NCBI RefSeq assembly: GCF_041381155.1
Contig: NC_091147.1
Span: forward strand, 10,686,837 to 10,750,836
From: Argopecten irradians
Lineage: Eukaryota; Mollusca; Bivalvia; Pectinida; Pectinidae
Reading direction: 5' to 3'
Length of the DNA: 64,000 nt
Shown: positions 13,301-61,181 of the stretch, piece by piece
Layout of the letters: each line of letters opens with the position of its first letter
Position numbering within the stretch: position 1 is the stretch's first letter
The notes under the pieces: generated by a model
The model's input: the letters and a program-made list of their open reading frames with translations, nothing else
The model's database searches: none
What the model was told of the DNA's origin: nothing
Position numbers and translations under genes: made by a program

Positions 13301-16300
13301 CTTTCGATTCTGTATCATGGGATTTTATTGAAAAGGTTTTAAATTTTTTTTTGGTTTTGGTAACAGCATTTTGTCTTGGGTTAAAACTCTACATAGGAAT
13401 CCTTTCTCAGAAGTTAATCAAGATGGTAATTTGTCTTCTTCTCTTAATATTAAACGAGGCTGTCGTCAGGGAGATCCAATCGCTTCTTACTTGTTTGTAC
13501 TATGTGCAGAAGTTTTGGCCATAGTTTAAGAAATAATGATAATATTACAGGTATTTATATCGATAATTGTCCAATACTAGTATCACAGTATGCAGGCGAC
13601 ACATCACTTATATTAGATGGATCCGAAAAATCTTTGGCTGAGGCAATTAATGAATTGGACGAATATTAAAAAATTTCAGGTTTAAAAATTAACATAGAAA
13701 AAACTCAAGTAGTTTGGATAGGTCGCAAAAAGTATAGCTAGGACTCATCTTTACCACATTTAAATTTACATTGGGGTAGAAACAAATTAACTTTGTTAGG
13801 AATTGAGTTCAGCGTGAACCTCCATGAATTCCAAAGTTGAACTTTGATAAAAAAATAATTAAACTTAAGTCTCTGATCAAAACTTGGAGTAGAAGGTCTT
13901 TGACCTTAATAGGCAGAATTCATATAATTAAGTCATTGCTTGTATCGCAACTTAATCATCTTTTTATTTCGCTTCCAAATACAAATGAACGTTTTCTGAA
14001 GAATCTAAACTCAATTCTGTTTCATTTCTTATGGAATGGTGGGTCAGATAAAATCAAGAGAGATGTTGTGGTTCAAAATTACATGATTGGAGGCTTGAAA
14101 ATGATAAATATTGACACGTTTATTTGCTCGCTAAAATTGAAATGTATAAGGAGACTAATCCAAATCAATGAAAAATGGCAATCTATTTTGAAAACTTATA
14201 TTGATATTGATTTATTGGCCAACTGTGGTAGCGAATATATTTACTTATGTATAAACAAATGTAAAAACCAGTTTTGGAGGGATGTCTTAAGATCATGGCA
14301 TAGACTTAACCAACAACAAGAAAAGATGGAGGACAATGAGTCAGTTGGGAAATACCACTCTGGTATAACAAAAAGATATGTATTGGGGGGGAACGATTTT
14401 TTATAAAAATTGGTATAAAAAAGGCGTTGTTAATATTTTTGATGTAATGAAAGATATATCCACAGGATCTTTTTATTCTTTAAATGAATTCTCACAGAAA
14501 TACCAGATTGTGACAATATCACGGCTTTACATCAGACATTAAGAAGGTGATTTCAGGTTTGGATTTGAGTAATAATAGAATTGTCTGTCCCTTTATACCA
14601 TCAAATTTAAAATTATTTTTCGAGTGTCCTAAAATGAAAGACTCGAAGATTTGATGATTGGAATGATACTGATTGGACAAATATATATAAAATCCCTTTC
14701 CATGTCACAAATAATACTAAGCTTCAGTGGTTTCAGTTCCGAGTAGTTCATCATATTTCAACAACAAATTCTTTTTTATTCAAATTCGGTGTGGTTACCT
14801 CCCCTTTTCTATACTGTTTTATTCTGAAAGAGAAACTATTATACATATTTTATGGGAATGTATTGTGTATTTGTCTATATGTTCCTGCATATTATGTGGT
14901 GTATTGCACATGAAAATGAAATAAAAAATAAATTATAAAAAATAATTACAACAGCCAACAATCCAACTACTTGCAGAGGGTCACCATTTTGTCACGACGT
15001 GTAGGTGACGTCATTGTTGGATGACATCAAGCATGCCGTCACAATGGATTTCCAGCCTATGAAGCGCACTGCAGTTTATACTGCACAAGTGACATGTAGG
15101 GAAATATTACATGGTTGAAGTCACGGGATAACAGACTGATTATTATAAATAAAACAGTTCGTACATAGCATTATACGCGGGTATTAAGTGTTTTCCAGAG
15201 TTTGTCAGTGTCGGCTGCTTTTGTTTACATGTCCCATATATTTGCTAGCGTTTTGAAATAGCCTTGTTATCATAAAATTGAAATTATCTTATTACGCGTA
15301 TAAAGTTTGTCTGCAAATGTAACAAACAAATATTTATTACAATAAACAATGATATTAAATAAGCCCTGCACTTACATGTGTTTTCCAAATTTCCGTTAAA
15401 GATGTACCCTTTAAACTGTTGATTTAGCTCATGAAAAGGTCCAAAATAACCACCACATTTCCCATATTGTTCCAGTCGAATTACACCACTTAAAAGTAAA
15501 CATTAATAAAAAAAATAAAAAAACTCAAAACAGAAATAAGATTACACATTTAAGAAAATCAGATGTAAATATGTACGAATTCTCTTAAACATTTACATGG
15601 ACTTCAAAAGAATAGTACATTTTCGTGTAGGTGAAGGGAACACAGGGGTTATATTTCTCCCATACTAAAAAGACGAAAAGTGATCCCACCATAGTCAATT
15701 TCGGTCGTATTCTTTACAGTTTAACTTTATCCTACAACCAGCATTGATGGTGTCGAAATATATCTAACATATATATGTTTACTGTACTCGGCACTGACGG
15801 CAAACATTAGTATTTTTAAATTAATGTTGCAAGATAAAAGGAATACATGGTCTTTGTTTTAAAATGTAAGCTTCATTTCGCTCGGTTCAGTAAGAAGAAA
15901 AGTGGCTCGCTTTTGTCTTTCTTAACCCTTGCCAAAATACAGCTTATATTGAAGACACGGACAATGTATTCTCTATATATTCATCCACTTTAGTTACAGA
16001 TTTTACTCAGAGTCATTAAAACTAAAAATAAAGCAATAATTTTCTGATTTTCATGCCATTTATTACAAAAAAAAATGTAAACAGACATTACAAATAATTG
16101 TATTTCCCACTATATGAATATATATACGTTGTTGTGCCTTTGAACGCCAGGATGTAGCTTTATGTGACGTCATTGTTTAAGTCAAGTATATGTAATGTGA
16201 GGTGTCTAGACTCCTTTGTGGAAGACCGTGCTTTTCTTTTGCTTTGGACTACATAAACTAGTAAACAATGCCTAACCATGACTTTGAATACCCAATGCAA

Positions 16301-19300
16301 CTATGAAATGTGTTGTATCACAACCATAATGCGACTTATTGATTCCTGCCTCGATGGGACGAACTGCTGTGACAAGTCGTCGGTACACGCCGTACTCTGT
16401 GAGAATGAATATCATGGCTTTGACTCGCAATCCTCCACACAATATCTCGTGTGATCAATTTGTATTTCCAATTCGTTAGTCTCCAACCTGTACTCTGTAG
16501 GTTACTGGTCCTAGCTTCTGTACAATCATTCCATGAGTCCATGATCGTTTTCGGTAAGTGCCTCGATAATCATGGCACCATTACCAAGTTTTCCAAATCT
16601 CCATTTCGCGACCTTTCTTGGCCACGACATTTTTTAACAGACGTATTTGAACAGATTGTTCAGGGATTTTGGTCTGATAATGTACCAAACGAGCTCTCTG
16701 CCCATGAATAACTCAGCTGATGTGACCTTGGTAAGAGTATGAGGAGTTGTCCTATATGACATTAGGAATGACGCCCAGCTTTTGGTTCATCTTCCCTTCC
16801 TCATCTTCCACATATTTATACCAGTCCTTAAAATGTATTCACCGCACGTTCGGCTTCATCATTTGAACATTGGATGATATGACGCTGATTTTGAAATGTT
16901 TGACGCCATTGAATCTTTACGAATTCTTCGAACTCAGCTGCCACGAACTGTGGTCCGTTGTTTGACACTATTTCTTTTGGTAGTCCGTACGCGGAGAACA
17001 TATCTCGAAGCGCGTTTATCGTGCTTTCAGCATTCTCACAACGTCCAAACGTTTGGAGTGCGCGTCCATGACTACTAAGAACATACTATTCAGGAATGGT
17101 CCAGCGTAGTCGATTTGTCCACGTTTCCATGCTTTCTTCGGCCACAACCATGGATTAGATCGCGACTGTGGCATGCTCGGTAGTTGTTTTCTACAACTTT
17201 TACACTTTGCCACCTTAGTTTCAATATCTGTGTCCAACGTTGGCCACCACACGAACCATCTCGCCAACGCCTTCATTCTTACTATTCCTGGATGGTTACC
17301 ATGTAACTCGTTCAAAATTTCATCCTGGAACCAATCTGGAACAATAACTCGGATTCCTCTCAGGAGACATCGTTCCTCCACTGTCAGTTCCTCTCTGACA
17401 CGGTAAAAGGGGAGTAACTCATTTTGTGGCTTTTCATGCGCCCACTCGCCTTTCACCTAGCCGGCCGGGGTTCGATCCCCGGCACGGACGTGAAAAAGGT
17501 CAGGGGTCACCTGCCCGATCACGTGGGTTTTATCCGGGCACTCTGGTTTTTCCTCACACACTAAGACCCTCGCGCGCTTAGACCCGGGCCATCGAGAGTG
17601 ATTTACATAAGTTGTATAACTTGTTTCTCAATCGATGTAAGATAAATAAAGTTTATATATTATATATCCGTTTATCGTTACAAAGTCCAACACTCACTCT
17701 AGACAAAACAGGTCCCCCATTTTTTGTTGCCGGTGTGGCAATTTTTGTGGTCTGTGATTGTATAACATATGCCTCAATTGAATGGTTGATTTTCACTCTT
17801 CATGGTATTCCTGGTCTATTTCAAGACGACATCCGCGCTCAGGTGGTCAACAGGAATAACGCGATAAATGTATTCAGCACTTTCCGTTCTGAGTGGTTGA
17901 CCTTATACTTTATATCCAAATTGATGACGACGCCGCAACTGGAATAGGCCCACCTCTTGCAACAGCGAGGTAGCTAGCACAAGGAATAACCTTACTTTGT
18001 CCTAGAAACAGTGTTAATGGTTGTATGGTCATGTCGCAACAAAGTTTTTTCGGCCATAAAGATACTGATGAAACTTTCCGGACTCCATCTAGATCACATG
18101 ATTCCTGACCAAAGCCTCCCTTTTCTCAATTTGGGAGATAATGTTTTTCGGTCTCACAGATGAGGATACGCAATTGGTCGATCATCGTTGCCAAGAGTGT
18201 GAGAAATCGCGGCTCCTAAACCATAAGAAGATGCATCTACTGCCATGGTTACAGGCTTTGCAGGGTTATAATGAACCAATACATCTGTTGACACTAAAAA
18301 TTTGTTCACAGACTGAGTGACAATCTGCTGTCCAATGCCAATCGACCTTGTCTGCCAGTAATATCGTGAGGGGGTTGGACAATTGACATATTTTGTATAA
18401 ACTTCATGTAGTAGTAAACAATGCCTAACCATGACTGAAGGTTTTTCTTATTTTGTGAATCCTTTAACTGTAGGATAGTTTCAATCTTGCGTGGTGATGG
18501 GTGAATTCCGTCTTTATTTACTACGAATGCAAAATATTCCAACTCCTCCCTCATCAAATAACACTTGTCTTTCTTCAACTTGACACCATAGTCATCCAAA
18601 CACTTTAGTGTAGCATTCAGGTTTTGCTGATTAACAACATAATCTTTTCCCGTCACGAGAACATCATCCAAGATATACAACCAACATTGTCTAATAATTG
18701 TAGAACAGTTTCCATTGTCCGCTGTAAAATAGCTGGTACAGACGCTACACCAAATGGAAGCCTGGTGTATCTATACAAACCAAGATGAGTGTTGATAGTT
18801 ACATATTTTCGCGACTCCTCATCCAGAAGAACCTGGTTGTAAGCTTAAAGCTTGGGTCAAATCCAGCTTTGAACATTCTGTCCATTTTTGAGCTTGGTGA
18901 ATATCTCCTCGCTGGTTGACATGGGATATTCAGGTACATCCAGCACGGGGTTTTTGGTGATTTTGAAATCGCAATATATTCTCACTGAACCGTCTGGTTT
19001 CATGACAAGCATTATGGGTGTCGCCCAATCTGAGCTTTCTATCGTTTCCACTATGCCAGCAGCCTCTAGTCGCTGAACATCTGTGCCTATCTGATTTTAA
19101 GTGCATAAGGTATAGTTCTAGCTTTGAACTTAGGCTGGGTATTGTCCTTCAGTTTGATAGATGCTGTGATTCCCTTAACTGTGCCTAATTTGTCCTCAAA
19201 TACAGAATATTTCTGCTCGTTGATAGTAATCAGGTGATTGTTTTCCAGTTAAGATGTAGCTGTCCTGACCAATTTCTATCAAATAAAGCAGGTCCTTCAC

Positions 19301-22300
19301 CTTCCACTACTAGCAATGGCAAAAGTTTGTTCTGTCCTTCATATGACACCTGGGCACTAGCCTCGCCCAACACTGGCAATACTTCACCGATATATGTTTT
19401 CAACATGGTTGAGCTGTCTTGTAGTTTAACTTTGTCCTTGAACATAGCCCTGTAATATTTGTCCGATATCAGAGAAACTGGTGAACCGGTGTCCAGCTGC
19501 ATCGTTTTAGGTGTGTTTTCAATTTCAAATGAAATGCGGATCCGTTTTTTGCCCCTCAGAGACATCCATGAAATGGAATTTCGAACTCTTTTTACTTTTC
19601 TTGGAGTTTCACTTTGTCGGTCTGGTTGAATCAGAACTACCAGTACTTTGATTTTTTGAAGTCCAATGTTTATCTTTGGAGGGATTTGATTTCGGGCACT
19701 TTTTATGTAAATGTCCTATCTCTTTGCATGTATGGCACTAACTACTTTTGTAGAAACATCTGTCTGCACTGTGGTTCGTCTTACCGCAGCGAAAACAATC
19801 CTTGAATGATTGAAACTTGTTGGCATTTCCAGTTTTGTCTACACTGTCTCCTTTCAATTTTCGTGCCTCATTTTCAGCCATCTCCATGCTCACCACTATT
19901 TCCTTTGCTTTGACATTGTCAGAGTTGCGGTGTGTAGGAATCGAGGACAAACCTGACACAAACCTGTCTCTCAATACATCGTCTAGAAACGTGCCAAATT
20001 CACAATGTTCTGTTTCATTCGACTGCTGATCCCTATGATAGAATTTAAACCTTTCTGATATAATAAGCGGTTTTGGTTTTAAATGTTGAGATATTAGTTC
20101 CTTCAACTTATCGTTTGTCTTATCAGAGGGTTTTTCGGGAGATGTTAGGTTCCGCACGAAATCACACATTTTCTTACCCATATCTGTCATCAATAGCGAG
20201 CGTTGTTTATCAACATCATCAACTCCGTTTGCTAAGAAATATTGTTCCACCCTTTATGGAATGGTAACACTGAGAAAAGGTCGGGAACATTCACCCACCT
20301 TGGCTGTCGGTGAATGGCTTTTTAACTAATTTACAACGATTTTGGTTTACCATACTGCCGTTATCTTTAGCTTCGTTACACCAGAAATCCTCGTCGCCAC
20401 TGTAATGCCCGGGTGTAGGCTTTCATTAGATGTTATGTCAGGAACAAAAACGGCACACATGTTTCACACGTTATTGCAATATGGGGCGGGGGGGGGGAGC
20501 AGTCAGCAACAACATCTATAGGCATGCGCAATACACATACAAGCTAGGTCGTACTAATTACCATTATGACTATTTGTAGGATAATGGCTAGTGCAATATT
20601 GTTAAGTACTCTAAATCTACAAACATTACAAAAAGTGAATCTTTCTTAATTTGAAATTAAATGATTTAAGTTCATGAAAATGAATGCCAAATTTGTGCGA
20701 AATTACGTCCCCTTAGTCTATTATGCGATTTGCATGAATGGAGATTAGCCTTGCAATCGTGGTTTTCTTCGAAAATGCCAAAGTACATGTACCAAAATAA
20801 ATGGTTTTTTTTTATAAAAAAAACGCAGAAGCATTACAGTATATACCTGCATATTATGGTATTGCAGTTTATTTATCTCAACATTTGAGAATCAATAATT
20901 CATGGTAGGTTTAATATTTTAACTTAAATGTTAATGAATTTGACACATCCATATGAACTTGTAGATGTATGTTTCAATAGGAACGATACATGTAATATAA
21001 TTTATCGGCTTTCATCCATTTATTGCATACTATTGATTCTCTCGCTTTAAGAAGTAATTATTACTTACAAGTCTGACGTACACCACAGCCACTCGCCAAG
21101 TATGTAGAGGTCGGTGCAGCCAGGAACACCTCGGTAAAGCGTCGTTAACCCAGCACCGTTTCCCAAACTCCTCGATATTCCTTCCATACGTGTATCCTTC
21201 CAGAAAACAGTTTTAGCTGTAGGGTAATTATCAAATTACGTTTTTCATTCATAACACAAACACGTTATCAATCATATGATTGTTAATAAAGATTATGCCA
21301 TTCATATTGCCTCATAATACCATGTGACATGTTTAACACATTTTTTTAGAATCCCATAAATATAATTGTTTCCTGACTATCTAGTATATAACATATTGTA
21401 AATTAAGTTTTCACAATTTTCACAATGCACCTATTTCATGTGTAAATACAGTGTATCTTTTCATTACGCATAGTGAGATAAGACAAATTCACTCAGCAAT
21501 TTTTCTTTGACAGGATTATTTACTTTGAAAAAATAATGTGTTTATTATTTTGTTAATCAATTTGATACAGACATTTAGTGTATTGCTTGATTATTGCACA
21601 AATAGTTTTGGTTTGTAAATGTATTTGATATATTTATTTTTTCTATGATAAAAATAATGTTTTCCAAAGAAGGAAACAATCTATTAGTGGTCACGATTAG
21701 AGCAGCTCTATTCTAAGAAATACGCCTTAATATTGATCTACATAATTATTTTGTAAGTATCTTTTGCATACCACATGTCATCTTGAACTCAAGCAAAGGG
21801 AAACTAGTTGATATATGTATGTATACCTCATTTATAAAATGAAAATAAAAATAAATCAACCTAAAATTGAAATATGAAATAATTTGATAATGGGTGGTAT
21901 GTACACCCATATATATAATATATATAACGTAAAAACAACTTGAAATAATACGAGCAGTCACTAGATTATATGTGAAAAGACAGAGCATACACATGCGTAT
22001 CAAAAAGATCTCCTATACTTTTAAAATAAGCTGAGAATCAATCTACAAGTAAATGTTTCTGTCAGTATATTACACTTCAAACTGAGCTTGCTGTGTTTCA
22101 GAAGAAAACACATTAAACCGGTATTGATATCTTAATATAACGTGCAACAGCATAAGGATGAAACGCTAAAAAGTAGATGATTATACCAATTGTCATGGCA
22201 AATTCAGAGAAGTGATTCAATCGTTAAACTTAATTATTAACTCAGAGGAATGGGTGTGTGTATTCTTTGTTTAAAGCATGGCTTGTTTGGGATGAGGTGG

Positions 22301-42654: not shown

Positions 42655-43175
42655 TGTAAGACAAAATATATTTATATAATTGTACACACCTGATCATGAG
42701 ATGTAATCAACATTCACCTGTACATACCTGTGATGTAAGGCAATATTAAGTTGTAAACCTTTAGATGTACTCGCCATTCATTGATCACCTTGTACATACC
42801 TGAGATGTAAGGCCAATATTTAATTGTACACACCTTAGATGTAACTCAGTTTACCTGTACATACCTATGATGTAAGGCAATATTTAATTGTACACACCTT
42901 AGATGTACTCAGTTTTACCTGTACATACCTATGATGTAAGGCAATATTTAATCTGTACACACCTTAGATATACTCAGTTTACCTGTACATACCTATGATG
43001 TAAGGCAATATTTAATTGTACACACACCTTAGATGTACATCAGTTTACCTGTACATACCTATGATGTAAGGCAATATTTTATTGTACACACCTTAGATGT
43101 ACTCAGTTTACCTGTACATACCTATGATGTAAGGCAATATTTAATTGTACACACCTTTAGATGTACTCCACATTT
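42655..43175. repeat. 63-bp minisatellite, copy I
   Basis: About eight units of 60-70 bases, with CCTATGATGTAAGGCAATAT as the recurring core. It lies between the SGNH and gag-like genes, as in the other copies. Confidence 0.8.
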
Positions 43176-43664
43176 ACCTATCTCACCATTCACCTGTACA
43201 TTACTTAAGAATTAACTAAAATCATTTCAAATCGTAACACAAATCACAATCTATGTCAAAGGGGAAAACAACAATGTTCCAAATATTTACTTAGGAGAGC
43301 GAGAGAAGTAAAATTGACCGTGACCGCTAGACCGTAACCTATTGAATGCTAAACAAGCTAACACTCCAACGTAAACAATGAATTTCTATGTAGTAACCTT
43401 GACCCGTGCAATAAATGTATATATAGACGACATGTGGACGTAAACAAACTGCACATAACTTAACCTTGAACTTTAAACAACTAAAGAATGTCATTTGTTA
43501 ATATATAAAGTTCATATAAAACTCAACCTTTGTAATAAGTTCTCAAGATTGTGATAAATTAGAATTTAATCATACAATGAATATTAATCGCAGCACTACG
43601 CCTAATGTTCGATAAACGAGAGTAACCGTACCTGAACTGGGCGGAAGTGGCCCGTCCCGCATAA

Positions 43665-44326: not shown

Positions 44327-44787
44327 CTTTCAATTCAATTTGTTAAAAACGTAACAAATCAAAAAACTGACTGACCTTGAAAAACGTCCTTCTTCTCTTT
44401 GTTTCTCTGTCGCAGCTCTGATGCGCATGCGTAATGACTATTATAAATCTCCTACCCATCTCCCCCTTCTGTATCACCGAAAAAACCGCGAAATTTAAAA
44501 TGACTTTTACACTTAAAGCTTACTTTACGATTACGTTTAACGACAACTCCTAGCATGTATAAAGTACATTAAAATGTTATTTTAATTATCATTTATACAT
44601 GACCGTCGTGAGGGCGAGCTTGTTGAACCAAATACATGCAAAAACAAAGCAGAGACTTGTTCTGATTGAAATTGGCTGTTTATTAAATATAAACGCCGGA
44701 CTTGAAGATATTTACTTTTCAAGTCAATATAAAAACAAATTGACCCCACAAGACATCATTTGGTTCTAGGTGGGGATAAAAAACGCC
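44327..44787 (-). repeat. Terminal direct repeat R of copy I
   Basis: About 460 bases, CTTTCAATTCAATTTG to GGGGATAAAAAACGCC on the + strand, repeated at 44,935, 52,007, 52,607 and 59,777. Lies just upstream of the copy I SGNH start codon. Confidence 0.85.
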
Positions 44788-44934
44788 CCATTTTATAGAC
44801 ACATTCACATAATACAAGACACATTAACATAATACTTAACATGGTAAAAAATACAAAAAAAAAAAAAAAAATAAAAATACAGAATCTCAATAACCAAATT
44901 GGAAGGAGGAGGGGGTGGAGGCGGCTTTCAATTC
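44788..44934. repeat. 147-base spacer between copies I and II
   Basis: Contains an A-rich run (about 44,858-44,872) and GGAAGGAGGAGGGGGTGGAG. The same spacer recurs at 52,471-52,606, so the array grew by duplicating element plus spacer, or the spacer belongs to the element end. Confidence 0.75.
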
Positions 44935-45386
44935 AATTTGTTAAAAACGTAACAAATCAAAAAACTGACTGACCTTGAAAAACGTCCTTCTTTTCTTTGT
45001 TTCTCTGTCGCAGCTCTGATGCGCATGCGTAATGACTATTATAAATCTCCTACCCATCTCCCCCTTCTGTATCACCGAAAAAACCGCGAAATTTAAAATG
45101 ACTTTTAAACATAAAGCTTACTTTACGATTACGTTTAACGACAACTCCTAGCATGTATAAAGTACATTAAAATGTTATTTTAATTATCATTTATACATGA
45201 CCGTCGTGAGGGCGAGCTTGTTGAACCAAATACATGCAAAAACAAAGCAGAGACTTGTTCTGATTGAAATTGGCTGTTTATTAAATATAAACGCCGGACT
45301 TGAAGATATTTACTTTCCAAGTTAATATAAAAACAAATTGACCCCACAAGACATCATTTGGTTCTAGGTGGGGATAAAAAAACGCC
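44935..45386 (-). repeat. Terminal direct repeat R at the 3' end of copy II
   Basis: Second R copy at this junction; separated from the first by the 147-base spacer. Confidence 0.85.
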
Positions 45387-45509
45387 ACAATGTTGTTCTG
45401 CAACAACATACCCCACCCGAAGCCCTCACGACGATCTTTCTTATCATTTGAACATATGAACAAGAAATATAAATAAAATTTCAACTATTCTCAATATTAA
45501 GCAAAAAAT

Positions 45510-46251
45510 AGCTCCGACCCTATGCCCGAGCTAACAGCAGATGTATCTGTCCAAAGAAACATACTCAAACCATGTTGGATGGAATGGTGTAACCTTTTTC
45601 ATGAATATGTTAGTTCCTTTATTCTCAAAAGTTTATCGAGTCATCATCCATATGTAGATAATTGTTCACTTTGATGAGGTACACTGTCACAAAAGCGCAT
45701 AGCATATGATAGTTCCTTGGAAGCAGTGAAATCATAAAACACGTTCATTATCCAGTTATGGTTATCTTTCCTCATTTGTACCATATCCAGCCACCAAAAC
45801 AGTATCACAACATACATTATGTAAACATTACAAGTACATCAACAAGATCAAATTTGACCCAATGCCAAAGTTGATAAATAATAATAATAATTTTTATTAT
45901 TATTATAGTACTAATTTCTACGAAAGCGAGTACCAGGGTACATGTAATTCAGTAAAACAAAGTTCAAAAATCAAAAGGTATGTACAACATGCCATACAAC
46001 TTCGACCCAATGCCCAAGTTGATAAAACACATACCATAAATACCCTCATTGAAATAACAGCAATTAAAAGTCTTATTAATGTAACACATTAATATACATA
46101 CGCACAAAATATTATCCTGTCTTATTGAGTGCAACTTCGACCCTATGCCCAAGTTGACCTCAATTAAAACAAAGGAACTGACCTAATATGATAGAATACA
46201 ATATTAAACTTTGACAAAGCAGTATTCAACTTCGACCCAATGCCCAAGTTG
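45510..46251 (-). repeat. Cluster of five small hairpins, copy II
   Basis: At 45,510-45,532, 45,849-45,873, 45,997-46,021, 46,132-46,156 and 46,227-46,251. On the element strand three read CAACTT-GGGCAT(A/T)GGGTCG-AAGTTG. The first reads AGCTC-GGGCATAGGGTCG-GAGCT: same 13-base loop, different but paired stem. The second is degenerate (stem CAACTTT/AAATTTG). All lie between the recombinase stop and the terminal repeat. Confidence 0.75.
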
Positions 46252-46335
46252 ACAAAAATCCTCCAATACACATGTACAGCATAACCTCAGTATGGAATTT
46301 AAACTTCCCATGTCTTTCAAAAGTACAAATCTTTT

Positions 46336-47268
46336 CTATGCATTGTCAAAAAATGTTGGTAAACGTATATAGCGTTTAAAAGCCAGTGACTTCCATCTAC
46401 CCATGTGTTGAATGTCCTCTCTGGTACCCCTTGAGCTGCAGCCGTACTAGCAGCCCCGATTCGAAAACTGTGGCTAGTTATAGCCTTTAGAATCTATGCC
46501 AGCTGCACATAGCGTTTGTTTCAGACATGTAGTAAAAAACTGATAAGACACTGGTTGATTGTTTGGAAAAGAAAAAAGGTGACCAGGATTAGTGCCTCGT
46601 ATGTCACAAATATGGACTAATTAGCCATTACTGGGCAGATGGAAGTATCTTGCTTTTTCTCTATGGATAGGACAATTGGACGTATATTACAATTGCTTTT
46701 AAAGGATCTAAAAGTAATTTCTATTTTGATTGGATGGCCAAGACAATCTGGAATAATGGCTATGTCGTTATATTGCAATGTATGACAACTAAACGTATTA
46801 ACTGTCATTTCACCTACGCGCAGGAAGGCATGGAAAGCTAAAAGATACATTGCTCGTAGCATACACTGTTGGTATTGTGGTAATAATGTTTTAGGTAATG
46901 CCCCAACCAATTTCCGCAAAATATCTGGAGTAATAGGTAAACGAGAGTCTGGTTGATATGTTCCTCTTTGAATGGCTGCCAAAATCTTTTTGATAATAAA
47001 GGACTGGGCTGGGTCTGCATAGCCTGATAAACTTATTAATGTACCCTACCGCAGCACACATAAGAACTTAATGGTTGCTGAAGACTTGTTCTCACTATAC
47101 ATATGAGCAATGAAGTAGAACCAGCAGGTCCACTTTAGTTGGTAAGCAAAAGCTATGAGAATAAAAATGTGTGTACTAGCGAAATCTTTGAAGTTGACCG
47201 AAAGCCCTCATGTAGCTTTTTCTGGTTTGGGATGCTATTGCAGTCATCAGGAGATGTTGCACTATTGT
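46336..47268 (-). pseudogene. Tyrosine recombinase gene, copy II
   Basis: Collinear with the recombinases of copies III and IV; the FHAFLRVGEMTVN segment with the first catalytic arginine is visible. Broken. Confidence 0.7.
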
Positions 47269-50454: not shown

Positions 50455-50920
50455 CTATACATACCTATGATGTAAGACAAAATATTTATATAATTGTACA
50501 CACCTGATCATGAGATGTAATCAACATTCACCTTACATACCTGTGATGTAAGGCAATATTAAGTTGTACACCTTTAGATGTACTCGCCATTCATGATCAC
50601 CTGTACATACCTGAGATGTAAGGCAGTATTTAATTGTACACACCTTAGATGTACTCAGTTTACCTGTACATACCTATGATGTAAGGCAATATTTAATTGT
50701 ACACACCTTAGATGTACTCAGTTTACCTGTACATACCTATGATGTAAGGCAATATTTAATTGTACACACCTTAGATGTACTCAGTTTACCTGTACATACC
50801 TATGATGTAAGGCAATATTTAATTGTACACACCTTAGATGTACTCAGTTTACCTGTACATACCTATGATGTAAGGCAATATTTAATTGTACACACCTTAG
50901 ATGTACTCCACATTTACCTA
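50455..50920. repeat. 63-bp minisatellite, copy II
   Basis: About seven units; the central ones repeat at 63 bases almost without change (ACCTGTACATACCTATGATG core). Between SGNH and gag-like genes. Confidence 0.85.
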
Positions 50921-52006: not shown

Positions 52007-52470
52007 CTTTCAATTCAATTTGTTTAAAAACGTAACAAATCAAAAAACTGACTGACCTTGAAAAACGTCCTTCTTCTCTTTGTTTCTCTGTCGCAGCTCT
52101 GATGCGCATGCGTAATGACTATTATAAATCTCCTACCCATCTCCCCCTTCTGTATCACCGAACAAAACCGCGAAATTTAAAATGACTTTTACACTTAAAG
52201 CTTACTTTACGATTACGTTTAACGACAACTCCTAGCATGTATAAAGTACATTAAAATGTTATTTTAATTATCATTTATACATGACCGTCGTGAGGGCGAG
52301 CTTGTTGAACCAAATACATGCAAAAACAAAGCAGAGACTTGTTCTGATTGAAATTGGCTGTTTATTAAATATAAACGCCGGACTTGAAGATATTATACTT
52401 TTCAAGTCAATATAAAAACAAATTGACCCCACAAGACATCATTTGGTTCTAGGTGGGGATAAAAAACGCC
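52007..52470 (-). repeat. Terminal direct repeat R at the 5' end of copy II
   Basis: Bounds copy II on the SGNH side; the SGNH start codon (52,001) lies a few bases inside it. Confidence 0.85.
52101..52131 (-). promoter_or_regulatory. Putative promoter elements inside R
   Basis: On the element strand a TATA-like TTTATAATAG is followed by the palindrome GCATGCGC (within ACGCATGCGCATC), an NRF1-like site. They lie about 110 bases upstream of the SGNH start codon and recur in every R copy. Promoter function is inferred. Confidence 0.4.
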
Positions 52471-52606
52471 CCCATTTTATGGACACATTCACATAATACA
52501 AGATACATTAACATAATACTTAACATGGTAAAAAATACAAAAAAAAAAAAAAATAAAAATATAGAATCTCAATAACCAAATTGGAAGGAGGAGGGGGTGG
52601 AGGCGG
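52471..52606. repeat. 136-base spacer between copies II and III
   Basis: Same sequence as 44,788-44,934 except for a few substitutions and a shorter A run. Confidence 0.75.
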
Positions 52607-53068
52607 CTTTCAATTCAATTTGTTAAAAACGTAACAAATCAAAAAACTGACTGACCTTGAAAAACGTCCTTCTTCTCTTTGTTTCTCTGTCGCAGCTCTG
52701 ATGCGCATGCGTAATGACTATTATAAATCTCCTACCCATCTCCCCCTTCTGTATCACCGAAAAAAACCGCGAAATTTAAAATGACATTTACACTTAAAGC
52801 TTACTTTACGATTACGTTTAACGACAACTCCTAGCATGTATAAAGTACATTAAAATGTTATTTTAATTATCATTTATACATGACCGTCGTGAGGGCGAGC
52901 TTGTTGAACCAAATACATGCAAAAACAAAGCAGAGACTTGTTCTGATTGAAATTGGCTGTTTATTAAATATAAACGCCTGACTTGAAGATATTTACTTTT
53001 CAAGTCAATATAAAAACAAATTGACCCCACAAGACATCATTTGGTTCTAGGTGGGGATAAAAAACGCC
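52607..53068 (-). repeat. Terminal direct repeat R at the 3' end of copy III
   Basis: Same sequence as the R copies at 44,327, 44,935, 52,007 and 59,777. Confidence 0.85.
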
Positions 53069-53191
53069 ACAATGTTGTTCTGCAACAACATACCCCACCC
53101 GAAGCCCTCACGACAATCTTTCTTATCATTTGAACATATGAACAAGAAATATAAATAAAATTTCAACTATTCTCAATATTAGGCAAAATTT

Positions 53192-53995
53192 AGCTCCGAC
53201 CCTATGCCCGAGCTAACAGCAGATGTATCTGTCAAAAGAAACATACTCAAACCATGTTGGATGGAATGGTGTAACCTTTTTCATGAATATGTTAGTTCCT
53301 TTATTCTCAAAAGTTTATCGAGTCATCATCCATATGTAGATAATTGTTCACTTTGATGAGGTACACTGTCACAAAAGCGCATAGCATATGATAGTTCCTT
53401 GGAAGCAGTGAAATCATAAAACACGTTCATTATCCAGTTATGGTTATCTTTCCTCATTTGTACCATATCCAGCCACCAAAACAGTATCACAATATACATT
53501 ATGTAAACATTACAAGTACATCAACAAGATCAAATTCGACCCAATGCCAAAGTTGATAAATAATAATAATAATTTTTATTATTATTATAGTACTAATTTC
53601 TACGAAAGCGAGTACCAGGGTACATGTAATTCAGTAAAAACAAAGTTCAAAAATCAAAAGGTATGTACAACATGCCACACAACTTCAGTAATTCAGTAAA
53701 ACAAAGTTCAAAAATCAAAAGGTATGTACAACATGCCATACAACTTCGACCCAATGCCCAAGTTGATAAAACACATACCATAAATACCCTCATTGAAATA
53801 ACAGCAATTAAAAGTCTTATCAATGTAACACATTAATATACATACGCACAAAATATTATCCTGTCTTATTGAGTGCAACTTCGACCCTATGCCCAAGTTG
53901 ACCTCAATTAAAACAAAGGAACTGACCTAATATGATAGAATACAATATTAAACTTTGACAAAGCAGTATTCAACTTCGACCCAATGCCCAAGTTG
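53192..53995 (-). repeat. Cluster of five small hairpins, copy III
   Basis: At 53,192-53,214 (AGCTC/GAGCT stem), 53,531-53,555 (degenerate), 53,741-53,765, 53,876-53,900 and 53,971-53,995 (CAACTT/AAGTTG stem). Same spacing and sequence pattern as in copies II and IV. Confidence 0.75.
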
Positions 53996-54083: not shown

Positions 54084-55009
54084 CTATGCATTGTCAAAAA
54101 ATGTTGGTAAACGTATATAGCGTTTAAAAGCCAGTGACTTCCATCTACCCATGTGTTGAATGTCCTCATCTGGTACCCCTTGAGCTGCAGCCGTACTAGC
54201 AGCCCCGATTCGAAAACTGTGGCTAGTATAGCCTTTGGAATCTATGCCAGCTGCACATAGCGTTTGTTTCAGACATGTAGTAAAAAACTGATAAGACACT
54301 GGTTGATTGTTTGGAAAAGAAAAAAGGTGACCAGGATTAGTGCCTCGTATGGTCACAAATTGGACTAATGCCATTACTGGGCAGATGGAAGTATCTTGCT
54401 TTTTCTCTATGGATAGGACAATTGGACGTATATTACAATTGCTTTTAAAGGATCTAAAAGTAATTTCTATTTTGATTGGATGGCCAAGACAATCTGGAAT
54501 AATGGCTATGTCGTTATATTGCAATGTATGACAACTAAACGTATTAACTGTCATTTCACCTACGCGCAGGAAGGCATGGAAAGCTAAAAGATACATTGCT
54601 CGTAGCATACACTGTTGGTATTGTGGTAATAATGTTTTAGGTAAGGCCCCAACCAATTTCCGCAAAATATCTGGAGTAATAGGTAAACGAGAGTCTGGTT
54701 GATATGTTCCTCTTTGAATGGCTGCCAAAATCTTTTTGATAATAAAGGACTGGGCTGGGTCTGCATAGCCTGCTAACTTATTAATGTACCCTACCGCAGC
54801 AACATAAGACTTAATGGTTGCTGAAGACTTGTTCTCACTATACATATGAGCAATGAAGTAGACCAGCAGGTCCACTTTAGTTGGTAAGCAAGCTATAGAA
54901 TTAAAATGTGTACTAGCGAAATCTTGAAGTTGACCGAAAGCCTCATGTAGCTTTTTCTGGTTTGGGATGCTATTGCAGTCATCAGGAGATGTTGCACTAT
55001 TGTAATCAA
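54084..55009 (-). CDS. Tyrosine recombinase, copy III
   Basis: Main open stretch 54,084-54,875. N-terminal SAM-like core-binding region (ENKSSATIKSYVAAVGYI), then the catalytic domain: Arg I in AFLRVGEMTV, HSFRIGAAS (His-x-x-Arg), HMGRWKS (His/Trp region) and the Tyr nucleophile in RYIRLPTFF. All four hallmark positions are present. Tyrosine recombinases replace the integrase in DIRS-order elements and work by site-specific recombination, usually of a circular intermediate. Overlaps the end of the RT gene slightly. Confidence 0.85.
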
Positions 55010-56307
55010 ATGTGCAACAGATGAGGTGGGACTGGTACAGGGTCTTTCGTCATGTGTGGAGCTATTTCTTTGAATGCGTGAACCTGCAATCGAGACAAAA
55101 AATCTGCCAAGATATTTCTTTTACCCATTATATGCTCTGCACAGAATAGGATATTCAGCTGTAATGTTTTAACAACTAGTCTACGTACAAGTTTCATGAC
55201 AACTGAGTCCTTGCTTGTATGTTTATTCAATATAGAAACAACAGCTGCATTGTCACTGTGAAACAGTATGCATTTGTTCTTCAAATCGTCGCCCCATATT
55301 TCTACTGCTATGACTATAGGGAAAAGTTCTTTAATAGTTATATGATGACAGGTCATGTTTGACGGCCATTCCCCATAAAACCACTTATCGTTAAAAACGG
55401 CCCCAAAACCTAGTCCACTAGCATCAGTATAGAAATGAAGATGATTTGATGTTTCCCATCTATCTGCCAAGATAAGAGAAACCCCATTGAAGGATGCTAT
55501 GAATTCCTGCCAGGCACGAATGTCTAACCTTGCTTCTGTATTCAAACGAATGCGAAAGTATGGTTTAGTTATTCCTTTGGTAAGGTTGATGAGGCGGCGT
55601 AAAAAAGGGCGCCCTGGAAGTACTACACAGCATGCAAAATTGAGGAGGCCTATCAGAGATTGGAGTTCTTTAAGTGTAACTTTTTTGCGTGAACCAAAAG
55701 CTGACAAAAGTGAATTAATTTTCTCAACTTTATCGGGTGGTAAACGTGCCTCCATTTGAACTGTATCGATTTCAACTCCCAAAAAGGTTATGACAGTTGT
55801 AGGCTGTACTGTTTTGGTATGTTTGATGGGTATACCTACCCTTTGACATAATGCAAGGAATGACACTAAATCATTTTTACATTTATCCGAATCTGGGGGA
55901 CCGGCAAATAAAAAATCATCTAGTACATGCACTACGCCTGCAGCTTGAAAATGGTTGGACATAGACCATTGCAAAGCTGTGCTGAGTTGTTCAAAAAGGT
56001 TACAGGATATAGAACAGCCCATCGGAAGAACTTTGTCAAAGTAATATTTCCCACCCATTATCATACCCAAGAGTTCGTAATCATTCGGGGATATGGGAAG
56101 AATACGAAAGGCATTCTCAATATCAGTTTTGGCAAGTAATGTCCCAGTCCCAAAATATTTAACCAAACCAATAGCATCTGATATTGACTGATATTGAACC
56201 GATGAATCTTCAGGAGAAATCCCATCATTTATTGATGATCCCTTAGGGTAGGATAAGTGATGTATAAGCGTATACTCATTTTTCTCTTTTTTAGGAACTA
56301 AACCCAA
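55006..56307 (-). CDS. Reverse transcriptase/RNase H, copy III
   Basis: A single open stretch of about 433 residues. RT motifs in order: VPKKEKNEYTLIHHLSYP, LLAKTDIENAFRI (motif A, Asp), KVLPMGCSIS (motif B), VHVLDDFLFAG (motif C, DD), ITFLGVEI. RNase H follows: FYTDASGLGFGAVF (Asp), IKELFPIV (Glu), LFHSDNAAVV (Asp), RNILADFLSRL. The order and motifs match DIRS/Ngaro polymerases. It looks whole. The recombinase lies directly downstream in another frame. Confidence 0.88.
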   Translation of the reverse strand: MGLVPKKEKNEYTLIHHLSYPKGSSINDGISPEDSSVQYQSISDAIGLVKYFGTGTLLAKTDIENAFRILPISPNDYELLGMIMGGKYYFDKVLPMGCSISCNLFEQLSTALQWSMSNHFQAAGVVHVLDDFLFAGPPDSDKCKNDLVSFLALCQRVGIPIKHTKTVQPTTVITFLGVEIDTVQMEARLPPDKVEKINSLLSAFGSRKKVTLKELQSLIGLLNFACCVVLPGRPFLRRLINLTKGITKPYFRIRLNTEARLDIRAWQEFIASFNGVSLILADRWETSNHLHFYTDASGLGFGAVFNDKWFYGEWPSNMTCHHITIKELFPIVIAVEIWGDDLKNKCILFHSDNAAVVSILNKHTSKDSVVMKLVRRLVVKTLQLNILFCAEHIMGKRNILADFLSRLQVHAFKEIAPHMTKDPVPVPPHLLHI

Positions 56308-56341
56308 AGGAGATACCTGAAAATTTGTGAATGGAGGAGAA

Positions 56342-57942
56342 TCATAAGGCCCCCGCGATCCTACCTAGTGATACTTCTTTGTCAATTTTCTGTTTCAGAA
56401 TAACAGGATTTTGTTCTGCTGATTTGAGGTTTCTAGATTCACGAAAGCTTCTTTCACCCTGATGTTGTAATGAAAATCCCTTTTCAAAACCTTTTTGTAA
56501 GCTCATCAATCTATCAGAGTCATACCCTCCCAAATACTGTTTTAATATATCAAACTTTACTGGCGTAGGAAGGTTATGAACTGTTTCCCGAACGACCCCT
56601 GGGATTGTTTGAGGCGTTTTGTCTGCCCGAGGTGTTTGTTTGGGAGGTCCCGGTGTTGCCCTGAGTGTTTGGTGAAGTCCCATTATTTGGGTTAATGGCT
56701 GATTTGTTTTGGTGTTTGTTGCCCTGCACCCTACATTGTCTGACGTGGTGGTTACCCCCACATTTGGCACAGACATGAAGGAACCTGCACTGTGACCCAT
56801 AGTTGCATGAACCGGTTTGCATGAATTCCCAGCACCGACCTTTAATTTTGTTTCCATTACCATATGGTTGGGCTGGGGTTGATGGAAAGGGCACCTGTCT
56901 CTGAACAGGTTTCAAACTTATAGCCAGGGCATGTAAATACAACTCCTGGTTGATTACGTCCCATGCCATATTACTATTGTGTTGCATGAGTAACCGAAAC
57001 TGTGAATCATAAAAGATTGCAGCAGCAAATCCTGACCTCCGGGCAAGTGTTTGAATAGTGTCTGCATATTTTAGTAGACTAGCTATTCGGTGAGCATGGC
57101 TCTTGATGTACACTGATGTAAAAATATGAAAAGCTTGAAGCCATTGTTCAATGGTTCGAATTTGAAAATGCTTTTGTTTTGGAACGACAGAAATTTCGGT
57201 TCCTTGAAGCCGTAGTTGGCATTCTTTTGTTTTTGTTGCCGGTAAAAGCAAATTCCCAAAGTCAACAAATTCATGGCTATGAATTTTTGACACAATTTTT
57301 GTTTGTATCTAAGTTTAGCCCCAGAGGTAAGGAGATGCTGCTGTAAGGTGACACATTATTAGTCTCACCTGTCATGTTGTTAACAACAGACTGTAATGGT
57401 GGCTGGATACTACAAGGTGGCGAAACTACCAAATTAACAGTCTCGTCCTGCAATTGTACTACAGGTGTTGCAGACAGCTGGGTTGCGGGAGGAGATGATG
57501 TTGCAATTGGTACCACAAGTGGTGCCCCCAAGGCAGCCGATGGAGGCATCGTAGGCATTGGTACAACTGGAGCACTTTGGACTACCGAAGGTGGTGTAGT
57601 AGGTGGTACCACAGGTGGTGCATCGATAGCAGCTGATGATGATGTCGCAGCAGTTGGTACCACAGGTGGTGCCCCCAGTGCGGCCGAAGGTGGTGCACTA
57701 CTATGGGCTGTATGTAATGAAGGCAATGTGGCACCAGGCAACACCGTTGCCACACCCTTTTCCAACATTTGCTGCATTAATTCCGATGCTATTTCTCTTG
57801 CGGTAGGAAATTGTGACTGTCCAGAATTTGATTCATTTACAGTTGAGTTTGGTTCCACAGTGTCCTGTTGGTTCTCATGAACTCTGACAGCCCTATTGTT
57901 TAGGGCTGCCTGTCGCCTTGGTAGGCGTCTTATTGGACCCAT
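56342..57942 (-). pseudogene. gag-like gene, copy III
   Basis: Starts MGPIRRLPRRQAAL at 57,942. Layout: basic N-terminus; long Pro/Ala/Val-rich low-complexity stretch; helical region (RTIEQWLQAFHIFTSVYIKS); CCCH-type zinc finger (C-EFMQTGSCNYGSQCRFLH) running into a CX2C-H-C knuckle (CAKCGGNHHVRQC); Ser/Asn/Thr-rich tail. A nucleic-acid-binding structural protein is inferred. Counted with the fossil material; not fully open. Confidence 0.72.
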
Positions 57943-58229: not shown

Positions 58230-58690
58230 TTATACCTATGATGTAAGACAAAATATTTATATAATTGTACACACCTGATCATGAGATGTAATCAACATTC
58301 ACCTGTACATACCTGTGATGTAAGGCAATATTAAGTTGTACACCTTTAGATGTACTCGCCATTCATGATCACCTGTACATACCTGAGATGTAAGGCAATA
58401 TTTAATTGTACACACCTTAGATGTACTCAGTTTACCTGTACATACCTATGATGTAAGGCAATATTTAATTGTACACACCTTAGATGTACTCAGTTTACCT
58501 GTACATACCTATGATGTAAGGCAATATTTAATTGTACACACCTTAGATGTACTCAGTTTACCTGTACATACCTATGATGTAAGGCAATATTTAATTGTAC
58601 ACACCTTAGATGTACTCAGTTTACCTGTACATACCTATGATGTAAGGCAATATTTAATTGTACACACCTTAGATGTACTCCACATTTACC
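58230..58690. repeat. 63-bp minisatellite, copy III
   Basis: Unit starts at about 58,386, 58,449, 58,512, 58,575 and 58,638 are exactly 63 apart, with two less regular units before them. On the element strand each unit reads ACATCATAGGTATGTACAGG then TAAACTGAG, containing two splice-donor-like motifs (ATAG|GTATGT and ACAG|GTAAAC). Confidence 0.88.
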
Positions 58691-59168: not shown

Positions 59169-59783
59169 TTATATGGCACTCCGCGAAGCGCTCAATGACT
59201 TGCCCTTCAATACAGCCCCACGCACCGAGAGAATATACTTGCGAGACCCTTTCCTCGAAAGATGGACGCCATCTTGGCTCAGACACGAGAATATCCCAGT
59301 CTTTAATCCCTTATGTCGCCAGAAAAAACAATCACTAGAGTCCGCACACAATGTCCGTAAATTAGTATTCACCACATCCACAGCACTATTATACTTGTCC
59401 ACTGGTGCGTGACGGGTCTTAGACCTATACATGAGTTCCATAACACAAACACTGGCCACCCAAAATCCACTGACCATCCATGATGCGATCGAAAATATAT
59501 CTCTAGCCAATCGCCCAGAAAGATCCTCGCACAAAGGTGAATCAAGGTCATTGCCACCTATCTGTAACACTACTACAGCGGGTCGATGTCGCGCGAGAGC
59601 TCGAGACATATCAGACTGGAGAAGGTGACCTACTTTACCGCCACCCCGACCACAACAATGGATCGCCATTAATGACTCATCAAAACCAAGGTTATACCAC
59701 GACCCTGACATCTGACCTTCTAAACGTCTCACGAAACTATGACCCATAATAAGCACCGATATCCTCTCCATATTTTCTTTCAA
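59169..59783 (-). CDS. SGNH/GDSL-type hydrolase, copy III
   Basis: About 200 residues in one open stretch. SGNH family blocks are block I ISVLIMGHSFVRR (Ser nucleophile in GHS), a glycine-rich CCGRGGGKVG (block II region), block III VVLQIGGNDL, and block V DGVHLSRKG (Asp-x-x-His). No signal peptide or membrane segment is seen. The likely start is MERISVL at 59,771, six bases from the R repeat; an upstream in-frame ATG exists at 59,783. SGNH proteins are esterases/lipases; hydrolase genes of this kind are known in Ngaro retrotransposons, where their role is unclear. It is the first gene on the element's strand. Confidence 0.82.
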   Translation of the reverse strand: MKENMERISVLIMGHSFVRRLEGQMSGSWYNLGFDESLMAIHCCGRGGGKVGHLLQSDMSRALARHRPAVVVLQIGGNDLDSPLCEDLSGRLARDIFSIASWMVSGFWVASVCVMELMYRSKTRHAPVDKYNSAVDVVNTNLRTLCADSSDCFFWRHKGLKTGIFSCLSQDGVHLSRKGSRKYILSVRGAVLKGKSLSASRSAI

Positions 59784-60243
59784 TTCAATTTGTTAAAAAC
59801 GTAACAAATCAAAAAAAACTGACTGACCTTGAAAAACGTCCTTCTTCTCTTTGTTTCTCTGTCGCAGCTCTGATGCGCATGCGTAATGACTATTATAAAT
59901 CTCCTACCCATCTCCCCCTTCTGTATCACCGAAAAAAAACCGCGAAATTTAAAATGACATTTACACTTAAAGCTTACTTTACGATTACGTTTAACGACAA
60001 CTCCTAGCATGTATAAAGTACATTAAAATGTTATTTTAATTATCATTTATACATGACCGTCGTAAGGGCGAGCTTGTTGAACCAAATTAATGCAAAACAA
60101 CAAAGCAGAGACTTGTTCTGATTGAAATTGGCTGTTTATTAAATATAAACGCCGGACTTGAAGATATTTACTTTTCAAGTTAATATAAAAACAAATTGAC
60201 CCCACAAGACATCATTTGGTTCTAGGTGGGGATAAAAAACGCC
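59777..60243 (-). repeat. Terminal direct repeat R shared by copies III and IV
   Basis: Only one R, without spacer, lies between the recombinase side of copy IV and the SGNH side of copy III, unlike the R-spacer-R arrangement at the other two junctions. This is what recombination between two R copies, or a head-to-tail intermediate, would leave. Confidence 0.8.
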
Positions 60244-60377
60244 ACAATGTTGTTCTGCAACAACATACCCCACCCGAAGCCCTCACGACGATCTTTCTTA
60301 TCATTTGAACATATGAACAAGATATGAACAAGAAATATAAATAAAATTTCAACTATTCTCAATATTAAGCAAAAAAT

Positions 60378-61181
60378 AGCTCCGACCCTATGCCCGAGCT
60401 AACAGCAGATGTATCTGTCCAAAGAAACATACTCAAACCATGTTGGATGGAATGGTGTAACCTTTTTCATGAATATGTTAGTTCCTTTATTCTCAAAAGT
60501 TTATCGAGTCATCATCCATATGTAGATAATTGTTCACTTTGATGAGGTACACTGTCACAAAAGCGCATAGCATATGATAGTTCCTTGGAAACACTGAAAT
60601 CATAAAAACACGTTCATTATCCAGTTATGGTTATCTCTCCTCATTTGTACCATATCCAGCCACCAAAACAGTATCACAATATACATTATGTAAACATTAC
60701 AAGTACATCAACAAGATCAAATTCGACCCAATGCCAAAGTTGATAAATAATAATAATAATTTTTATTATTATTATAGTACTAATTTCTACGAAAGCGAGT
60801 ACCAGGGTACATGTAATTCAGTAAAACAAAGTTCAAAAATCAAAAGGTATGTACAACATGCCACACAACTTCAGTAATTCAGTAAAACAAAGTTCAAAAA
60901 TCAAAAGGTATGTACAACATGCCACACAACTTCGACCCAATGCCCAAGTTGATAAAACACATACCATAAATACCCTCATTGAAATAACAGCAATTAAAAG
61001 TCTTATTAATGTAACACATTAATATACATATGCACAAAATATTATCTTGTCTTATTGAGTGCAACTTCGACCCTATGCCCAAGTTGACCTCAATTAAAAC
61101 AAAGGAACTGACCTAATATGATAGAATACAATATTAAACTTTGACAAAGCAGTATTCAACTTCGACCCAATGCCCAAGTTG
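60378..61181 (-). repeat. Cluster of five small hairpins, copy IV
   Basis: At 60,378-60,400, 60,718-60,742, 60,927-60,951, 61,062-61,086 and 61,157-61,181, with the same two stem types and the same loop as in copies II and III. Confidence 0.75.

Follow-up and report, generated by a model that had tools for sequence, protein, structure and literature searches.

Five hairpins downstream of the recombinase gene in Ngaro-like retrotransposon units of Argopecten irradians probably act as RNA tags recognised by an element protein

Organization of the locus

The window analysed here is a 64,000-nt stretch of Argopecten irradians contig NC_091147.1 (positions 10,686,837 to 10,750,836), and its part from 40432 to 64000 is occupied by a head-to-tail array of Ngaro-like units. 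All units lie on the minus strand at a spacing of about 7.2-7.8 kb and share 93.6-98.4% identity over BLAST pieces of at least 1 kb; at the left end U1 is truncated within the reverse transcriptase (RT), and at the right end U4 runs past the window. Such an arrangement could have arisen through circle integration or through unequal exchange. In the sense direction, a Gag-like ORF is followed by an RT (with a below-cut-off RNase H), a tyrosine recombinase and the hairpin block described below, after which come a repeat termed X, an ORF resembling GDSL/SGNH hydrolases (E 1.4e-5, below cut-off) and a 63-bp minisatellite. This minisatellite is found between the hydrolase-like and Gag-like ORFs in three units (42716-43179, 50530-50908 and 58301-58680).

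The protein assignments were obtained by Pfam comparison. For U3, RVT_1 reaches E 5.6e-9 and 36.4 bits against a cut-off of 29.6, and RT_RNaseH beside it scores 16.9 bits (E 0.0072), under its cut-off of 24.8. The recombinase sequence shows HSFR and a C-terminal RYIR, which we take to be the HxxR motif and the C-terminal tyrosine of tyrosine recombinases. A PDB sequence search with the recombinase returned seven matches, all RIG-I/DDX58 at E 0.15-0.99, which were dismissed as noise, and no recombinase. The U2 recombinase frame is interrupted, with a stretch of 142 aa at 46617-47045, and the frames of U3 and U4 measure 321 and 345 aa from stop to stop. Pfam scans of five element ORFs up to E 0.1 brought up no methyltransferase family; the lack of this domain separates Ngaro-like elements from DIRS and PAT. 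In having an RT, a tyrosine recombinase in place of a DDE integrase and no methyltransferase domain detected, the units agree with Ngaro-like elements. The name Gag for the ORF with the CCCH finger is putative and is drawn from its place before the RT and from the finger itself. Elsewhere in the window, LINE-type remains lie at 11656-14406 (endonuclease match just under cut-off; RT recognised by eye) and LTR-type remains at 17016-20253 (H2C2 integrase above cut-off; zinc knuckle weak).

Table 1. Positions of the hairpins, repeats and protein-coding regions in the window
Feature	Positions	Strand	Remarks
Hairpin H1, U2	45509-45533	-	Stem TAGCTC/GAGCTA, core as in H4; both sides of three pairs differ from H3-H5
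Hairpin H2, U2	45849-45873	-	One stem pair broken, core altered; G.G mismatch replaced by U-A
Hairpin H3, U2	45997-46021	-	Stem CAACTT/AAGTTG
Hairpin H4, U2	46132-46156	-	Stem CAACTT/AAGTTG; six further bp past a 2x2 internal loop (46124-46164)
Hairpin H5, U2	46227-46251	-	Stem CAACTT/AAGTTG; extra outer T-A pair (46226-46252)
Five hairpins, U3	53191-53995	-	Cores at 53197, 53537, 53747, 53882, 53977
Five hairpins, U4	60377-61181	-	Cores at 60383, 60724, 60933, 61068, 61163
Repeat X (462 bp), adjoining the hairpin block of U2	44925-45386	-	Second copy at 44327-44787, beyond the 137-bp spacer Y
X/Y regions	44327-45386, 52007-53068, 59777-60243		X-Y-X in the first two, single X in the third
Tyrosine recombinase ORF, U3 (stop to stop)	54084-55049	-	Pfam PF00589, E 4.2e-8, above cut-off
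RT/RNase H ORF, U3	55006-56364	-	RVT_1 above cut-off; RNase H below
Gag-like ORF, U3	56574-57308	-	Pfam PF00642 (CCCH zinc finger) at E 2.9e-7, above cut-off; candidate hairpin binder

A 25-nt motif repeated five times per unit

The hairpin block is located between the stop codon of the tyrosine recombinase and the long direct repeat X. It is characterized by a 25-nt motif, a 6-bp stem enclosing a 13-nt near-constant core, of which U2 holds five copies within 0.74 kb; on the plus strand the motif reads CAACTT-CGACCCWATGCCC-AAGTTG, with variants, and occurs five times per unit. The first hairpin in the sense direction, H5, starts 88 nt past the recombinase stop codon in U3, and the last, H1, ends 122 nt ahead of X in U2. 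By itself, a stem of 6 bp around a loop of 13 nt is no rarity: there are 112 instances on the two strands of the window, and these hairpins contribute 24 of them (12 sites counted on two strands, the plus-strand half by symmetry). When the core is searched with up to two mismatches, 15 matches are retrieved in the window, compared with a mean of 0.70 and a maximum of 4 in 100 shuffles, and the full motif with up to three mismatches yields 12 matches (H2-H5 of each unit; H1 falls outside this pattern) against 0.00 expected. An earlier note on this DNA had described a cluster of five hairpins downstream of the recombinase, and the 15 cores, five per unit, bear it out. A covariance model was built from eight of the 15 sites, the other seven each scoring the same as one of the eight, and places all 15 at 42-49 bits in the 64 kb, scores to be read in light of the model having been made from these sites. 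The next matches in the window drop to 12.9 bits (E 1.3, at 37231) and 11.6 bits (E 2.8, at 26847), and the model finds no further copy at the X/Y repeat junctions or elsewhere in the 64 kb.

Among the five U2 paralogues, pairwise identity amounts to 116/130 (89%) in the core and to 44/60 and 48/60 in the two arms, and H3-H5 are identical but for one base; the stem CAACTT/AAGTTG is indeed shared by three hairpins, as had been claimed. The 40-nt flanks agree at 122/400 and 133/400 positions (31% and 33%), near the 28% of random pairs, and the conserved unit is therefore the 25-nt motif itself. The loop, previously called invariant, deserves that name in H1, H3, H4 and H5 apart from one A/T position, but not in H2, whose core is altered on the sense strand at the first base and in U2 also at the last. 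The hairpins recur in U2, U3 and U4, yet these are near-identical tandem units of one array, and the three copies that the note invoked are consequently not independent. Across the hairpin region, 895 of the 910 ungapped columns are identical in the three units, and variable columns make up 1/125 in the hairpins versus 14/785 outside (Fisher p = 0.71). Between units, the hairpins are thus not significantly more conserved than their surroundings, the units being too alike for a test of selection.

Compensated and uncompensated changes in the stems

The stem of H1 had been regarded as wholly different from the others, which goes too far: compared with H3-H5, three of its six pairs are unchanged, and the remaining three are changed on both sides and all compensated. 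In H2, one arm base is changed without a matching change opposite, and the pair is lost in U2, U3 and U4 alike. In an alignment of eight rows, 97.2% of the cells pair, and pairing falls to 15-56% when the partners are slid by 1-3 columns. Three pairs show changes on both sides, a number that 48 of 500 shuffles also reach, and in 0/500 did the count of doubly changed cells or the covariation score reach the observed value. The doubly changed cells number six, lie without exception in the two H1 rows and hence reflect one lineage. Simulations with independently drifting arms give a chance of 0.0002-0.005, varying with divergence and transition bias, that the 3' arm of H1 is an exact complement. 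At the sequence level, the pairing of the hairpins is supported by the three compensated pairs of H1, which represent one independent compensated paralogue. Compensated changes can also be generated by palindrome correction during copying, so compensation alone does not amount to the mark of selection on structure that it had been taken for; the covariation is present in H1, but in one paralogue, next to the uncompensated change in H2.

Predicted folding and strand preference

Where an open loop had been assumed, the 13 nt enclosed by the stem are predicted to fold further on the sense strand, into a G.G mismatch followed by G-C, G.U and C-G pairs and a pentaloop AUWGG, although 43-90 of 1000 loop shuffles with fixed arms (4-9%) are at least as stable as the loops observed on that strand (H1 73, H2 of U2 43, H2 of U3 57, H3 90, H4 60 and H5 89), which makes the inner stem weak evidence. 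In H2, the G.G step is turned into U-A in U2 and U.G in U3, and the lost stem pair is thereby partly offset. Predicted energies on the sense strand are -11.9 kcal/mol for H1, -9.3 kcal/mol for H3, H4 and the plain 25-nt H5, and -4.7 (U2) and -4.4 kcal/mol (U3) for H2; the extended forms reach -11.2 kcal/mol for H5 with one flanking pair and -17.5 kcal/mol for H4 with its extension. On the antisense strand the corresponding predictions are -5.4 kcal/mol for H1, -2.1 for H3, H4 and plain H5, and -0.2 for H2 of U2.

In the 904-nt sense RNA of U2, all five hairpins are part of the predicted centroid structure, and the whole stretch has a z-score of -1.84 (20 shuffles). Mean probabilities of the outer pairs in a context of 0.9-1.0 kb lie at 0.63-0.99 for the three units and both strands, the exceptions being H2 antisense (0.02 in U3 and U4) and H3 sense (0.16 in U3 and U4, 0.63 in U2). 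At 0.16, H3 is predicted to be unformed most of the time in the sense RNA of U3 and U4, where a nearby 61-bp duplication may compete. The outer stems form in antisense RNA too, with probabilities of 0.68-0.98 for H1 and H3-H5. A G-quadruplex and a loop-loop kissing contact were set aside by eye only: each sense-strand core has two GGG tracts (that of H2 a single one), and the loop showed no 6-nt stretch complementary to itself.

Searches for related hairpins

In viral contigs, protein scans with the recombinase, the RT and stretches of each confirmed no relative. A stem-anchored core pattern retrieved 12 single sites from these contigs, about the chance level for the assumed collection size; each locus has one core and none has a 6-bp stem (0/12), the longest measuring 5 pairs, 3 of them forced by the pattern. 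A pattern that demands two cores gave 0 loci in viral contigs and 20 loci with 53 cores in prokaryote genome contigs. These cores served as controls: 0/53 are enclosed by a stem of at least 4 contiguous Watson-Crick pairs and 3/53 by one of 3, so having the core does not entail having a stem, with the qualification that several of the 53 are tandem repeats or from one genome and fewer are independent. The hairpin pattern search revealed no hairpin relative in the prokaryote genome contigs. Applied to the 32 viral and prokaryote loci, the covariance model reported 44 matches up to E 10, the top ones being the pattern-selected sites, and the best of them (locus L001; 25.4 bits, E 0.0026) lies far under the 42-49 bits of the window sites. 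In Rfam, no family reaches its gathering score within the window; RT-6 RNA in 45378-46300, with 14.6 bits against a cut-off of 46.7, was rejected as chance-level.

A proposed RNA signal and its alternatives

The matched changes in the arms, the better sense-strand folding of the isolated hairpins, their position between recombinase and repeats and the CCCH finger in the Gag-like ORF, which is of an RNA-binding type, favour a signal that acts at the level of RNA. We prefer, tentatively and with somewhat less than even confidence, to see in the hairpins a cis-acting RNA signal that is multivalent and sits in the transcript's 3' non-coding part, its likeliest binder being the CCCH Gag-like protein. 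The earlier note had also listed an RNA signal among its options, and this option gains from the folding of the isolated hairpins and from the CCCH finger, whereas folding in the 0.9-1.0 kb context is mixed.

A cluster of binding sites in double-stranded DNA, occupied by the recombinase at accessory sites or by a host factor, with the dyad arms as half-sites, would likewise explain five spaced copies of a near-constant 13-bp core with a mostly conserved dyad, and it sits well with arms that pair on both strands. Half-sites need not change together, yet H1 alters three matched pairs, and the core is asymmetric and has no copy at the X/Y repeats; we consider such a cluster rather unlikely. The recombinase could use the motifs as crossover sites, as the earlier note had suggested from the inverted repeats around a short core; the recombinase gene lies next to them. 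Crossover sites of tyrosine recombinases usually have a spacer of 6-8 bp and copies at the recombining ends. Here, the spacer is 13 bp long and asymmetric, the arms comprise 6 bp only, and the five copies are internal with none found at the repeat junctions, which weakens that proposal to the point of making it highly improbable.

The arms could also owe their match to mutation rather than selection, if a short motif spread recently within the element and its arms were matched by template switching. Such palindrome correction occurs when template switching in replication or reverse transcription makes the arms match. The near-identity of H3-H5 and the lack of significant extra constraint between units agree with a recent spread, and a single correction event would account for H1; the flanks, however, have diverged nearly to random identity while the core is kept at 89%. 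This points to an old motif under constraint, unless it was moved and its flanks were left behind, and the explanation by recent spread is doubtful. Lastly, the RNA could be read by another protein, either by the RT in template recognition or by host proteins for processing or stability. Five copies with a near-constant upper part differ from the single stem-loop of LINEs and exceed what template recognition is known to need, and the window holds no Rfam family at the gathering score. In favour of another reader stand the 3' non-coding location, which the hairpins share with the 3'-UTR stem-loop of stringent LINEs, and the precedent that this stem-loop sets: it is reported to be recognised by the LINEs' own reverse transcriptase (PMC5135761). 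On balance, another reader is very unlikely.

Under the preferred reading of a signal bound by the Gag-like protein, the five motifs would be hairpins of the sense RNA in the non-coding stretch between recombinase stop and X, each built from an exchangeable 6-bp lower stem and a G.G (or U.G/U-A) step, on which stands an upper stem of 3 bp capped by a near-constant AUWGG loop. The constant upper part would be recognised by an element protein, the CCCH zinc-finger Gag-like protein being the first choice, and five copies could provide the avidity with which the full-length transcript is singled out to be packaged and reverse-transcribed. Four steps in this reading are inferred: the identity of the ORF as a Gag, the inclusion of the region in the full-length RNA, the binding and the packaging. 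The fullest form of the proposal, in which five AUWGG-headed hairpins on exchangeable stems are read by a zinc-finger Gag and constitute the packaging signal of a tyrosine-recombinase retrotransposon, is unlikely; if true, it would place a packaging signal in a retroelement order for which none was found among the literature matches listed. A defined, repeated hairpin beside a zinc-finger Gag-like gene would make the choice of RNA for reverse transcription in tyrosine-recombinase retrotransposons directly testable with short RNAs and purified protein.

Comparison with known systems

Packaging hairpins of retroviruses and retrotransposons are bound by Gag zinc fingers. The hairpins described here resemble them in being several, in exposing constant, G-rich portions in the sense RNA and in that their own element encodes a zinc-finger Gag-like protein; they differ in their 3' location, in being five spaced copies of one motif and in that binding is putative. 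The gypsy insulator is a cluster of Su(Hw) sites and, like the present block, places repeated motifs that look like protein sites in non-coding retroelement sequence, but it functions as DNA, for which no covariation of arms is expected. Ngaro elements in bivalves are a subject of PMC10294476 and PMC8905726. Five papers that deal at least in part with tyrosine-recombinase retrotransposons (PMC9210276, PMC8547959, PMC4157794, PMC3266345 and PMC6681497) nowhere use the word hairpin in their main text, and the titles and abstract beginnings of the open-access matches listed mention no such hairpin set; this silence on Ngaro hairpin sets is weak evidence of absence.

The Xenopus element DIRS-53_XT (Ngaro-like, DIRS order; PMC9210276) shares with the present units the RT, the tyrosine recombinase and the absence of a methyltransferase family, as well as a GDSL/SGNH-like ORF (here below cut-off) and long repeats downstream of the recombinase. 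Split direct repeats in Ngaro-like elements follow the plan A1-[ORFs]-B1A2B2. DIRS-53_XT is reported to carry split direct repeats (PMC9210276); the present units stand in a tandem array with X-Y-X at two junctions and a single X at the third.

Repeats X and Y and neighbouring structures

After the hairpin block, the array shows X(462)-Y(137)-X(462) at two junctions and a lone X at the third, and the single X resembles a solo repeat formed by recombination. Spacer Y is found nowhere else in the window, bar matches restricted to its A-rich part, and no free element end was recognised in the window. A perfect 12-nt inverted repeat (45202-45213 / 45422-45433; CGTCGTGAGGGC / GCCCTCACGACG) spans the border of X and the hairpin block in U2. 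The copy on the block side has a single base difference in U3, and in U4 an exact X-side copy was not found. Just outside X, a perfect stem of 8 bp closed by a 4-nt loop at 45390-45409 (also from 53072 and 60247) is identical in the three units. Within X, 60008-60055 forms an imperfect palindrome with 21-nt arms (76% complementary) around a 6-nt centre, a candidate recombinase site or structure whose first arm is present in 5/5 X copies.
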